The notes below the pieces were generated by a model. The model was not told the DNA's origin and searched no databases. It saw only the letters and a list, made by a program, of their open reading frames with translations. Position numbers and translations under genes: made by a program. Below are positions 54,848 through 60,906 of a stretch of DNA of 64,000 nt, piece by piece. This DNA is from Ensifer sp. BR816. Lineage in GTDB: Bacteria; Pseudomonadota; Alphaproteobacteria; Rhizobiales; Rhizobiaceae. The stretch is from contig NZ_KB905370.1 of NCBI RefSeq assembly GCF_000378985.1, forward strand, positions 2,797,210-2,861,209, given 5' to 3'. Every line of letters starts with the position of its first letter. Position 1 is the stretch's first letter.

Positions 54848-54872
54848 GGAACATATTCGAGTCTCGCCGGTT
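54848..54872 (+). promoter_or_regulatory. EcfG-type (general stress) promoter
   Basis: GGAAC at 54848-54852, 18 nt, then TT at 54871-54872, an exact match to the rhizobial RpoE2/EcfG pattern GGAAC-N18/19-TT. It lies about 80 nt before the DUF3008 gene. Confidence 0.75.
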
Positions 54873-54953
54873 CCGAGGGCGTCCATCGATAGCCGGAGCG
54901 GAATGCCGAAAAACGCTCGTCCGTCGCCGGCTCGCATGAGCGGAGGAAAAGAG

Positions 54954-55142
54954 ATGCCTGCAAAATCGAAGGCGCAGCAGAAGGCCGCCGGCGCGGCCCT
55001 TGCCGCCAAGCGCGGCGACATGAAGAAGAGCGATCTCAAGGGCGCTTCCAAGGGCATGGCCGAGTCGATGAGCGAGAAGGAACTCGAGGAAATGGCCTCG
55101 ACCAAGCGCAAGGGTAAGAAGGAGCACGTTTCGAAGTCTTGA
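54954..55142 (+). CDS. DUF3008 small basic stress protein
   Basis: 62 residues from ATG 54954 after CGGAGGAAAAGAG. The sequence MPAKSKAQQKAAGAALAAKR and the later KGMAESMSEKELEEMASTKR match DUF3008, a short lysine-rich family common in rhizobial stress regulons. Preceded by an EcfG-type promoter. The transcript could continue into the NepR-like gene 194 nt downstream. Molecular role unknown. Confidence 0.85.
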   Translation: MPAKSKAQQKAAGAALAAKRGDMKKSDLKGASKGMAESMSEKELEEMASTKRKGKKEHVSKS

Positions 55143-55336
55143 GTGCCCACAAGGCCGATTTGCCACTGTCTGCAAGCGACGCGAGTCCTCAACCCTCGAG
55201 GGTCCATCCATGCCAGGGCGGCAAAGACATCCCAAATTCAAAGGGATAGGTTTCGTGTCGGCTTCGCTTTGGTGATTTACACCAGCAACCGGGGACCATA
55301 TTTTAGGATCGGCACCCGGTCAGAAGGACGGACGGA

Positions 55337-55495
55337 ATGAGCGAAACCAAAGCCCGTGCAGATGCGGACGCAGACAGTGCCGTCGAGGAGCGGATCGCAT
55401 TCCTGTTGGGAAGGATACAGCAGGAGCCGGTGCCGCAACGTCTGCTTGAACTGGCGCAGCAGCTGCAGGAAGCGCTCAATGCGCGCAGGAAGTGA
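55337..55495 (+). CDS. NepR-like anti-sigma factor, 52 aa
   Basis: Short frame from ATG 55337 to TGA 55495. After an acidic N-terminus it reads ERIAFLLGRIQQEPVPQRLL followed by ELAQQLQEALNARRK. The EPVPxRLLELAxxL pattern is the conserved NepR core that binds EcfG sigma factors, and the length (usually 50-65 residues) fits. It converges on the sigma gene, leaving 25 nt between the two ends. Typical NepR genes are co-oriented and adjacent to ecfG, so this orientation is unusual. No PhyR gene is visible in the window. Confidence 0.72.
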   Translation: MSETKARADADADSAVEERIAFLLGRIQQEPVPQRLLELAQQLQEALNARRK

Positions 55496-55520
55496 CCGGG
55501 CCTTGGCGCGCAACCATTGT

Positions 55521-56042
55521 TTAGTTCAAGGGATTCCCGTGCATCTGCACAGTTAATTCATTCCGAGCGCGGCTGAGCCGGCTCTTGATCGTCCCGATCG
55601 CGCAATCGCAAATATCGGCCGCCTCCTTGTAGCTCATCCCGAACCCTGCGACGAGCACCAGAACTTCGCGGTGTTCGGCGGAAAGACACCCCAAAGCCGT
55701 CTGAAGCTCGCCGTTGAGAACGGACCACTCCTGGGACGGCGCTGTCGGTATCGGCAATTCCGCGCAGTTGGTGCTCCCGGGGCTTTCGCGCGTGCGGATC
55801 TTGTATTGCGTGCGGAAGGCGTTGCGCATGATCGTGAACAGCCACGACTTGAGGCTCGTGCCAGGCGCGAACTGATGGATGCTGCGCAAGGCGCGAAGCA
55901 GCGTTTCCTGCACGAGATCGTCCGCCTCGAACGACGCCGACGTGAAAGTCCGGGCGAAGGCCCGCAACGCCGGGATCAGGTCGACGACCTGCTCTTCAAT
56001 CTGCGGTGATGGCTGCGACGCGTGACCGGCGGTGGCAGGCAT
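55521..56042 (-). CDS. EcfG-like ECF sigma factor (RpoE2-type paralog)
   Basis: 173 residues from ATG 56040-56042; upstream in-frame extension runs through the promoter. Region 2 reads FEADDLVQETLLRALRSIHQ then TSLKSWLFTIMRNAFRTQYK, close to the EcfG (ECF15) pattern. Region 4 reads LSAEHREVLVLVAGFGMSYK then EAADICDCAIGTIKSRLSRA. It should recognise the GGAAC-N18/19-TT sites found around it, including one in front of itself. Adjacent to a NepR-like gene. Likely an accessory copy in addition to the main housekeeping EcfG of the genome. Confidence 0.88.
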   Translation of the reverse strand: MPATAGHASQPSPQIEEQVVDLIPALRAFARTFTSASFEADDLVQETLLRALRSIHQFAPGTSLKSWLFTIMRNAFRTQYKIRTRESPGSTNCAELPIPTAPSQEWSVLNGELQTALGCLSAEHREVLVLVAGFGMSYKEAADICDCAIGTIKSRLSRARNELTVQMHGNPLN

Positions 56043-56092
56043 ATCGAATATCGCCCTTCTTGCCGTGAGTATTCTTCTGGTGACGCGAAGGA

Positions 56093-56117
56093 AATGCCTG
56101 TCCGCGGCTTTGGTTCC
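56093..56117 (-). promoter_or_regulatory. EcfG-type promoter of the sigma gene (autoregulation)
   Basis: On the minus strand GGAAC (56113-56117), 18 nt, TT (56093-56094), about 51 nt before the sigma-factor start codon. Exact consensus match. Confidence 0.75.
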
Positions 56118-56139
56118 TAGGGGAGCCAAAAGTGCCGCG

Positions 56140-56164
56140 GGAACCAAAGGCCCCACTGTCGGTT
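56140..56164 (+). promoter_or_regulatory. EcfG-type promoter of the DUF1236 gene
   Basis: GGAAC (56140-56144), 18 nt, TT (56163-56164), 27 nt before the DUF1236 start. Its GGAACC box faces that of the sigma gene promoter, so the two form a symmetric divergent pair. Confidence 0.75.
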
Positions 56165-56190
56165 GGGTAAGCCTTGAAGAGGAGAAAACC

Positions 56191-59523: not shown

Positions 59524-59543
59524 ACTGGCCGAGACGCGCAGCC

Positions 59544-59966
59544 TCAACGGGCGCCGCCCGTTTTTTGCGGCCGTCCGGCCGCCTTGGTTATCTTCCTGTG
59601 CAGCGCGTGGTCGTCCTCTGTCGCGGCGTGTTCCTTGAGAATTTCGCTGAGGCGCTTCAGCTCGCGTTCGTCGAGTTTTTCGATCCCGACGAACCGGTTC
59701 TCGGCGCCGCTCGTCAGGATAAGCTCATCCAGCTTCGCCTGCACCGCAGTGCCATCGCGGTTCTGGGAATTCTGCAGGACGAAGACCATCAGGAAGGTGA
59801 CGATTGTCGTACCGGTGTTGATGATGAGCTGCCATGTCTCGGAAAAGCCGAAGAACGGACCGGAAATGCCCCAGACGGCAATCAGGGCAACTGCGACGAC
59901 GAAGGTGACCGGCCTGCCGGCATATCTCGCGACGGCTGTCGAGAACTTGCTGAAGCTATTCGCCAT
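59544..59966 (-). CDS. Low-affinity iron permease family protein
   Basis: 140 residues, two membrane segments (RPVTFVVAVALIAVWGISGP and LIINTGTTIVTFLMVFVLQN), then the conserved QNSQNRDGTAVQAKLDELIL and RFVGIEKLDERELKRLSEIL, as in the PF04120 family. It is short compared with fungal Fet4 and has only two helices, so direct iron transport is uncertain. Confidence 0.82.
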   Translation of the reverse strand: MANSFSKFSTAVARYAGRPVTFVVAVALIAVWGISGPFFGFSETWQLIINTGTTIVTFLMVFVLQNSQNRDGTAVQAKLDELILTSGAENRFVGIEKLDERELKRLSEILKEHAATEDDHALHRKITKAAGRPQKTGGAR

Positions 59967-60062
59967 TCTAAAGACCCGCCCACTGCATTTTGACGATCAT
60001 GGATAGTCACGCCGCCGTCGCCGGAGAAATCCGAAGGCGAAGTTTCCCATTGGTTTGCTGTA

Positions 60063-60088
60063 AATGCCTGAAACCAAAAAAGAGTTCC
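60063..60088 (-). promoter_or_regulatory. Weak EcfG-type promoter candidate
   Basis: GGAAC (60084-60088), 19 nt, TT (60063-60064) on the minus strand, but without the CGTT/GTT -10 context. About 97 nt before the iron-permease-like gene. Less convincing than the other sites. Confidence 0.35.
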
Positions 60089-60131
60089 CGGCGGGGGAGA
60101 AGGCAGGGTCGCCGGTGCAGCAGGCACAGGC

Positions 60132-60419
60132 TCACTCCAGCCCGTATGCATCACCTCCGCTGTCCTGTCCGGTTTCCGTGACGATCGTCAGGAAGGCCTC
60201 CCGGGAAGCGGAGAGGAAGGCGGCGCGGGCGTCTTCAGGTTTCTTCCGCTGCTTCAGCGCCGCATTGCACGCGCGCAGGGCGCAGCCGTAATAGGCGCCG
60301 TGCCGTACCGGCCACTCGCTTTGCAGACACTTGATCGCATCGAGCGGTCCAATGATGGTGCGGCATTTGCCGTCCAGCATGGTGATGCTGACGGGTTTCT
60401 CCCATGGGATCTCGCGCAT
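60132..60419 (-). CDS. DUF982 protein (copy 2)
   Basis: 95 residues from ATG 60417-60419 after AAAGGA. The pattern PVSITMLDGKCRTIIGPLDA, KCLQSEWPVRHGAYYGCALR and PEDARAAFLSASREAFLTIV matches DUF982. I found no EcfG-type site directly upstream. Function unknown. Confidence 0.86.
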   Translation of the reverse strand: MREIPWEKPVSITMLDGKCRTIIGPLDAIKCLQSEWPVRHGAYYGCALRACNAALKQRKKPEDARAAFLSASREAFLTIVTETGQDSGGDAYGLE

Positions 60420-60476
60420 GGCTGTCCTTTCGTATCCTCCTGCATGCTTCCTTGGAGCGGCCAAAGGATAAACATG

Positions 60477-60540
60477 CAGCAATTCAACGAGCTACTGCGA
60501 GTCTTTGTGCGTCTGAACAGATGCACGGCGCTGTAGGTGC
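60477..60540. repeat. Degenerate copy of a rhizobial palindromic repeat
   Basis: Aligns closely with 62364-62430: both read roughly 'GATTCAA...GCTACxGCG...GTCTGAA..GA.GC.CGGCGCTGTAG.TGC'. This copy has several substitutions that break the stems. Confidence 0.6.
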
Positions 60541-60591
60541 TATCTCTGCGTCGCGGCTGCCGGCTCTTTTCCGGCGCTTGAGTATGCGCCT

Positions 60592-60843
60592 CTATTGGCT
60601 GCGAATCGATAGGTGTGCCTCTTCCGCCGCCTTGATGAATGCCCTGCGGGCTTTCTCAGACTTGACCTTGCCGTCCAGGGCCTGGAGGCAAGTGCGTTTG
60701 GCGGCCGCGAGCGCCCGGCCACCCGGTTGCGGCCAGCGCGACAACAGGCATTCGACGGCTTCCCGCGTGCTCTTTACGGCGCGGTATCCGCCTGTTTCGC
60801 CGAGCTCCAATTCGACGCATTTATCCCACCAGAAACAGTGCAT
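60592..60843 (-). CDS. DUF982 protein (copy 3)
   Basis: 83 residues from ATG 60841-60843 with AAGG upstream. The pattern CVELELGETGGYRAVKSTRE, CLLSRWPQPGGRALAAAKRT and SEKARRAFIKAAEEAHLSIR matches DUF982. An EcfG-type promoter lies 38 nt upstream. It is distinct from copies 1 and 2, so these are diverged paralogs, not recent duplicates. Confidence 0.87.
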   Translation of the reverse strand: MHCFWWDKCVELELGETGGYRAVKSTREAVECLLSRWPQPGGRALAAAKRTCLQALDGKVKSEKARRAFIKAAEEAHLSIRSQ

Positions 60844-60880
60844 GACGCCTTGCCTCGCAGCTGGTTGCCAGTGGACATCA

Positions 60881-60906
60881 AACTGATCGAGCCGGCCTTT
60901 AGTTCC
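60881..60906 (-). promoter_or_regulatory. EcfG-type promoter of DUF982 copy 3
   Basis: On the minus strand GGAAC (60902-60906), 19 nt, TT (60881-60882), with AGTT at the -10. Only 38 nt from the start codon, a natural promoter distance. Confidence 0.68.

Follow-up and report, generated by a model that had tools for sequence, protein, structure and literature searches.

A second EcfG-type sigma factor, a small NepR-like gene and a predicted small RNA in a genus-wide Sinorhizobium island of conserved EcfG-type promoters

The 64,000-nucleotide stretch of Ensifer sp. BR816 DNA analyzed here (hereafter the window; contig NZ_KB905370.1, positions 2,797,210 to 2,861,209) holds, at window positions 54848 to 60906, a gene for a second, non-canonical EcfG-type sigma factor that lies among eight conserved EcfG-type promoters, together with a small NepR-like gene and a predicted small RNA. 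Sequence comparison identifies this locus as a genus-wide Sinorhizobium island that is largely of a known kind, and we think it probable that this rpoE5/ecfG2 island forms a second tier of the alphaproteobacterial general stress response (GSR), one that would be read by the canonical sigma factor RpoE2, held back by the NepR-like protein as a brake and extended by a base-pairing RNA. Promoter conservation, gene identities, a conserved RNA structure and the coding signal of the NepR-like gene were observed directly in this analysis.

A local cluster of conserved EcfG-type promoters

All seven GGAAC-N18/19-TT sites listed for this 6.06-kb region in an initial annotation are present (its minus-strand sites were cited by their low coordinate; their GGAAC ends are 56117, 59523 and 60906), and the enrichment that it had proposed to check was found. 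A strict form of the motif, GGAAC-N17/18-GTT counted on both strands, occurred 7 times in the region against 0.31-0.39 expected (Poisson P about 4e-8 to 2e-7), 3 times in the remaining 58 kb of the window and 26 times in a 400-kb background sample of the same contig (20 stretches of 20 kb, one overlapping the window's first 2.8 kb), where the next-densest 6.06-kb stretch held 3 matches. The looser GGAAC-N18/19-TT form gave 9 matches against 1.05 expected from the same sample (P 1.6e-6). Six of the seven listed sites have the strict form, and the seventh strict match, 54874(-), has no gene ahead of it and shares bases with 54848(+), so we attribute it to chance. The site of the sigma gene itself, 56117(-), ends in ATT instead of GTT and agrees with the rpoE5 promoter mapped in S. 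meliloti (PMC6180224, Table 1).

Density alone is weak evidence, and conservation of the sites is the strong evidence. We scanned public genomes with the sigma factor, kept the best 80 of 396 relatives and counted promoters at the 18 loci with a NepR-like neighbor (L015-L031 and L039) plus the window, leaving out the other 62; a promoter was scored where GGAAC-N17-19-TT lay within 300 bp upstream of the orthologue. The motif was kept upstream of the genes for a DUF3008 protein in 19/19 (54848-54872, +; transcription start expected about 54879), the sigma factor in 19/19 (56093-56117, -; GGAAC-N17-ATT), the first small open reading frame (ORF) of the small ORF-CBS-DUF982 genes in 18/18 (56585-56610, +), a 124-aa protein that precedes a short-chain dehydrogenase/reductase (SDR) in 18/18 (59499-59523, -), a DUF1236 protein in 16/16 (56140-56164, +), an iron permease in 16/16 (60063-60088, -) and the outer of two DUF982 proteins in 9/9 (60881-60906, -). 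The promoter of the predicted RNA (58072-58096, +) was present in 31/31 fetched loci of the genus, 30 by script and one, L136, by reading (the 32nd genome with the RNA, G257, is not among them). The iron permease site, 60088(-), is an eighth conserved site that the initial list lacked, and it ends in ATT in the window and L016-L018 and in GTT in the remaining relatives. Control genes were without the motif (inner DUF982 0/9, TerC 0/9, middle DUF982 0/16, CorC 0/7, Usp 0/3, p63232 0/9), and few motifs preceded the SDR gene (2/18), the NepR-like gene (3/19) or the DUF6074 gene (4/9, at differing places); the CBS gene scored 15/17 because it shares its promoter with the small ORF.

One might still ask whether such a cluster is the chance result of a loose motif, since the strict form occurs 359 times across the whole 6.95 Mb against 389 for a reversed control, so that it is not enriched genome-wide, a single match means little and the motif alone is weak evidence. 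We regard this explanation as having almost nothing left to commend it, given the local excess (P about 4e-8) and conservation from 9/9 to 31/31. These sequence comparisons indicate that the local cluster of EcfG-type promoters is real and that its sites are placed before genes or an RNA, as the initial annotation had held.

A second, non-canonical EcfG

The sigma gene (55521-56042, -) encodes a protein of 173 aa with PF04542, PF08281 and PF22029 (PhyR-like sigma2; 44.7 bits, cut-off 27), that is, with sigma regions 2 and 4. The longest ORF would start at 56192, but this position precedes the promoter of the gene and is probably not the true start; 56042 was adopted instead. The best PDB sequence match was 5uxx_A (E 3e-34), a chain that we take to be an EcfG, and chain B of that entry is named NepR. 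Mean pN/pS (the ratio of nonsynonymous to synonymous polymorphism) was 0.044-0.053 (three clades, 13/19 sequences), which argues that the gene is not decaying.

The initial annotation had taken this sigma factor to be distinct from the housekeeping one, and the genome agrees. A canonical phyR/nepR-ecfG set lies elsewhere on the contig (2.1409-2.1427 Mb), its EcfG being 40% identical to the window sigma, so the latter is a second, non-canonical EcfG. Nor does the locus have the canonical layout of a nepR-ecfG operon divergent from phyR, the NepR-like gene here being convergent and phyR being absent from the locus. A second phyR-nepR pair occurs at 278 kb of the contig, where several EcfG-type motifs surround it (276826-280609, locus L186).

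Among the best 80 of 396 relatives, the closest named orthologues were those of Sinorhizobium shofinae, glycinis, americanum and fredii (97-95% identical), and the copy of S. meliloti 4H41 was 92% identical. By sequence the window sigma corresponds to RpoE5 of S. meliloti (SMb21484, on pSymB; ECF15). The ECF15 sigma factors of that species are RpoE2 and RpoE5, and RpoE2 activates rpoE5 (PMC6180224).

A small NepR-like gene convergent with ecfG2

Convergent with the sigma gene lies a NepR-like gene (55337-55495, +) of 52 aa, and its presence, also proposed initially, was upheld by an ORF of 52-53 aa with an ATG start in 19/19 loci. The pN/pS of its frame, 0.22-0.39, was the lowest of all frames on both strands (15/19 sequences in three clades, the set leaving out L023, L024, L025 and L039). 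The nearest antisense frame gave 0.28-0.56, which may reflect codon-phase coupling, and two antisense frames were stop-free over the stretch in the 15 sequences. An antisense ORF of the SMb21687 type was also considered as the anti-sigma and is disfavored, though not absolutely, its length and start codon varying among loci. Because the antisense ORFs vary while the NepR-like ORF is constant, the NepR-like strand is favored, and its ORF looks like a real gene under purifying selection.

A profile built from 21 relatives of the small protein matched one of 23 canonical NepRs in hhalign at 93.8% (E 1.8e-7, 44 columns), and this match together with the core E-x-V-P-x-R-x-L-x-L is what the window protein has in common with NepR, RsiA1 and RsiA2, whereas its length of 52-53 aa and the lack of an operon with the sigma gene set it apart. 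In a PDB search with the profile the top two matches were NepR chains, at weak E values of 0.033 and 0.053, and one of the two entries also contains, as partner chain, the sigma factor's own best match, 5uxx_A. Pfam NepR was matched by 6/21 family members at E<=0.1 (best 0.0031). The window ORF, scoring below threshold, was absent from the genome-wide matches to Pfam NepR; NCBIfam assigns no family to the protein, and its positional counterpart in S. meliloti ml46 is annotated as a hypothetical protein. An unannotated ORF similar to RsiA1/RsiA2 has been reported opposite SMb21687 in S. meliloti and was said to need further work (Lang et al. 2018, PMC6180224).

Profile matches of at least 14 bits lay within 2 kb of an EcfG2-type gene in 37 of the 80 loci, of which 19 fall outside the 18-locus set and 9 of these 19 were not used in the profile; the 400-kb background gave 0 matches at that score. 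The weakest, at L062 (22 bits) and L066 (17 bits), lie on the same strand and may be ordinary NepR. Beyond the main Sinorhizobium set, NepR-like ORFs in varied orientation were seen at L037, L042, L043, L047, L052, L067, L069, L070 and others, with further such loci at L074, L075, L078, L081, L088 and L091-L094. By these profile matches, several other genera also have members of a small NepR-like family close to EcfG2-type sigma genes, and the window member is likely the anti-sigma of EcfG2.

A predicted small RNA with a C-rich loop

The site 58072(+) faces no gene on its strand, and some 32 nt from the start of the site lies the beginning of a predicted long hairpin, which is closed off by a terminator (58100-58210: minimum free energy -50.6, z -3.46). 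We predict here an RNA of about 105 nt (58103-58207, +; ends inferred) with a 5' hairpin, a C-rich loop and a Rho-independent terminator. In 16 aligned copies (the window and 15 named loci) the structure has 25 pairs, 6 of them with two-sided changes. Across the 31 fetched loci (30 distinct rows), aligned to an RNA model from those copies and thus in a way that favors the structure, 97.7% of cells were paired, 9/25 pairs had a two-sided change against 2.7 in shuffles and the covariation score was 0.204 against 0.149. The loop AGUYCCCUCUCCGC was the same in 31/31 loci and was followed by CCCU(U)ACGG in 30/31, the exception being the window, which reads CCCUGAGG.

The model found one copy in this genome and one copy in 32 of the 33 genomes of the genus, missing only G247, a complete genome that has the sigma factor; in 26 of the 31 genomes having both, the RNA lay within 5 kb of the sigma gene. 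In a sample of 247 family genomes there were 9 matches, four within the genus (this genome and three others) and five weak ones outside it (27.9-29.5 bits), which lack promoter and loop and are taken as chance. Nothing convincing was found at the other 63 named loci surrounding EcfG2-type genes (best 19.8 bits). Taken together, the element looks like a stress-induced small RNA.

It also looks undescribed. Rfam gave no family above cut-off, with four sub-threshold matches only at E<=1, and the loop sequence was not found in the literature searched; passages of PMC5869019 and PMC6180224 on related RNAs and sigma factors do not mention it. In S. meliloti, 23 small RNAs with RpoE2-type motifs have been listed, eight of them supported by arrays (PMC3616915). 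SmelB126 was rejected as the same RNA, as it lies at pSymB 1325476-1325586 while the counterpart of the window RNA is at about 1402730 on the minus strand, and SMb_sRNA_433/SmelB127ov could not be placed relative to it.

The closest functional parallel is GsrN of Caulobacter, a sigmaT-dependent RNA whose C-rich 5' loop is modeled as the target-binding element and which activates katG by base-pairing with the katG leader (PMC5869019). For Rhizobiaceae, GsrN-like RNAs (R. etli ReC64 region) were predicted from their proximity to the canonical ecfG-phyR locus (PMC5869019). An EcfG-type promoter, a 5' hairpin and an exposed C-rich loop are, by description only, common to these RNAs and to ours, whereas the window RNA sits in the EcfG2 island and not at the canonical locus. 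By analogy with GsrN it should bind G-rich leaders. A search for the 8-nt seed gave 21 listed GGAGAGGG-N-ATG matches (two at one place) against 10 in a reversed control, families could be assigned to 6 of the proteins downstream, and for the one of these six that was checked, a solute-binding protein, there was no relative at E<=1e-100 on Sinorhizobium plasmids. A separate candidate, which resembles the published GsrN-like predictions, occurs at 2140659 (+) of the contig (locus L185), where an EcfG-type promoter precedes a putative RNA with a C-rich hairpin, close to the 3' end of phyR.

Gene content and distribution of the island

The genes behind the conserved promoters encode a small Lys/Ala-rich DUF3008 protein (54954-55142, +; PF11450, 5.4e-29), a DUF1236 protein (56191-56469, +; PF06823, 1e-19), and three overlapping genes that are probably one operon (56667-57611, +), for a 68-aa protein without Pfam family, a CBS-domain protein and a DUF982 protein. 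On the minus strand follow a DUF6074 protein, whose gene has no conserved EcfG-type promoter (57638-57967), the SDR oxidoreductase (58234-59016; PF13561) as second gene of a probable operon led by that of the 124-aa protein without Pfam family (59019-59393), a low-affinity iron permease family protein (59544-59966; PF04120, 7.3e-48) and two DUF982 proteins (60132-60843; PF06169). At L024 and L039 the island is rearranged, the SDR and small ORF-CBS-DUF982 genes having moved to the other side of ecfG, and the promoters of the DUF3008, ecfG, small ORF and 124-aa protein genes are kept. Beyond the region, a terC RNA (RF03067, 63 bits; 61017-61080, +) lies upstream of a DUF475/TerC-family gene.

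The sigma orthologue was present in 32 of 33 genomes of the genus, this one included, the miss being a 70% complete genome, and the gene order was similar in relatives, including on replicons of the pSymB/pNGR234b type. In blastn, 10 plasmid records, from S. fredii, S. americanum and relatives, matched at least 80% of a 6.5-kb query, and partial matches (78%) on S. meliloti pSymB were among the matches listed. The initial annotation had called the module possibly mobile or lineage-specific. The latter holds at the level of the genus, while a mobile island is not supported, given the genus-wide presence, the similar gene order, the absence of tRNA genes from the window and the absence of any mobile-element family above cut-off among the 17 window proteins scanned. 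The 6.13-Mb contig brings together the canonical phyR-nepR-ecfG locus (2.142 Mb), whose SMc numbers in S. meliloti mark it as chromosomal there, the pSymB-type island (2.80-2.86 Mb) and a repABC-type RepC (4298136); either a chromosome and a chromid have fused naturally or the assembly has joined them.

The S. meliloti rpoE5 locus has the orthologous sigma factor, similar neighbors, a matching rpoE5 promoter and a convergent NepR-like ORF (PMC6180224), and what goes beyond the passages of that paper that describe it is the small RNA, the full conserved promoter set and the coding test of the NepR-like gene. R. etli EcfG2 (PF00052) is likewise a second, plasmid-borne, non-canonical EcfG (PMC3892343) that would belong to the same subgroup as the window sigma; it differs in having targets of its own, including katG, and in that no anti-sigma gene is reported nearby in the passages of PMC3892343 that describe it.

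Discussion

In the explanation that we favor, which builds on the PhyR/NepR/RpoE2 control established in S. meliloti (PMC3616915), stress would activate PhyR so that NepR frees the canonical EcfG (RpoE2), whose holoenzyme would read the eight GGAAC-N17/18-[G/A]TT promoters of the island. This would switch on ecfG2/rpoE5, the predicted RNA of about 105 nt and six protein-coding units (DUF3008; DUF1236; small ORF-CBS-DUF982; 124-aa protein-SDR; iron permease; DUF982 pair). EcfG2 would then accumulate while being held by the small NepR-like protein as its private brake, whose gene is convergent with ecfG2 and without a conserved EcfG-type promoter, and the RNA would display its C-rich loop on the 5'-terminal hairpin and probably regulate G-rich leaders by base-pairing, as GsrN does. 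RpoE2 activation has been shown in S. meliloti for rpoE5 only; as RpoE5 overexpression in that species raised just one putative target, thought to be indirect (PMC6180224), we infer that the other promoters, too, are probably read mainly by RpoE2.

These same observations speak against an autonomous island in which EcfG2 reads its own promoters without RpoE2 under control of the NepR-like protein, as the initial annotation suggested in calling the module self-contained. The sigma factor is distinct and under strong purifying selection, the NepR-like gene adjoins its gene, and EcfG1 and EcfG2 of R. etli operate in parallel, some targets being shared and others unique (PMC3892343), all of which would suit autonomy; with rpoE5 activated by RpoE2 and a single target on overexpression, we nevertheless consider it unlikely. 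The objection has its own limit, in that the overexpression was done in the otherwise wild-type strain CL150 (PMC6180224), where the NepR-like gene is present and EcfG2 may thus have been held inactive. Somewhat less unlikely, but still doubtful, is that the small NepR-like protein serves as a feedback element on PhyR and not as the anti-sigma of EcfG2; M. extorquens has two NepR paralogues that bind PhyR and for which no binding to EcfG was found (PMC4814048), while the gene's place near EcfG2-type sigma genes, in nearly half of the loci scanned, points to the sigma factor. That the element at 58103-58207 is an untranslated leader or terminator region only, and not a trans-acting RNA, seems improbable to us: its strong terminator points at the SDR gene, which is convergent with it, the seed search gave no conserved target and its transcription is so far a prediction, but no gene lies ahead on its strand, the loop is constant while the stems covary, and in G138 and G257 the model still finds a match at a distance from ecfG.

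Several points weigh against the two-tier explanation itself. EcfG2 may control few genes or none, since RpoE5 gave a single target and S. meliloti lacking every ECF (extracytoplasmic function) sigma factor showed no major defect (PMC6180224). The window ORF scores 17.3 bits against Pfam NepR, under the cut-off of 25.7; a Tyr that is invariant and a Phe that is nearly so in the 23 canonical NepRs are not conserved across the 21 small ones; 43 of the 80 EcfG2-type loci have no profile match within 2 kb (13 have one farther off); no EcfG was found to bind the M. extorquens paralogues; and no NepR-like gene is reported near R. etli ecfG2 in the passages cited above. For the RNA, further pair types, one of five covariation measures, were not above shuffles (22 against 20.6), the seed search found no conserved target, and its position, which is not in the main text of PMC3616915, may already stand in the supplementary tables.

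In a survey of completed alphaproteobacterial genomes, about half had extra EcfGs with a role described as not satisfactorily explained, and NepR control of R. etli EcfG2 was called unclear (Jans et al. 2013, PMC3892343). A small NepR-like gene near many of these extra EcfGs is a directly testable answer to how they are controlled, and the brake may also explain the near-absence of RpoE5 targets upon overexpression in wild-type S. meliloti. The RNA, in turn, is a candidate stress riboregulator of rhizobia with a defined promoter, structure and seed region, and within the island it is this RNA and the small NepR-like family that deserve following up. More tentatively, it is possible that many non-canonical EcfGs of the Rhizobiales have their own partners from a small, divergent NepR-like family that current models miss, and that the Sinorhizobium island adds a genus-wide family of C-rich-loop RNAs as a post-transcriptional stress arm beside the GsrN-like candidate; if so, dedicated NepR-like partners would explain why EcfG2 paralogues seem free of canonical NepR control.

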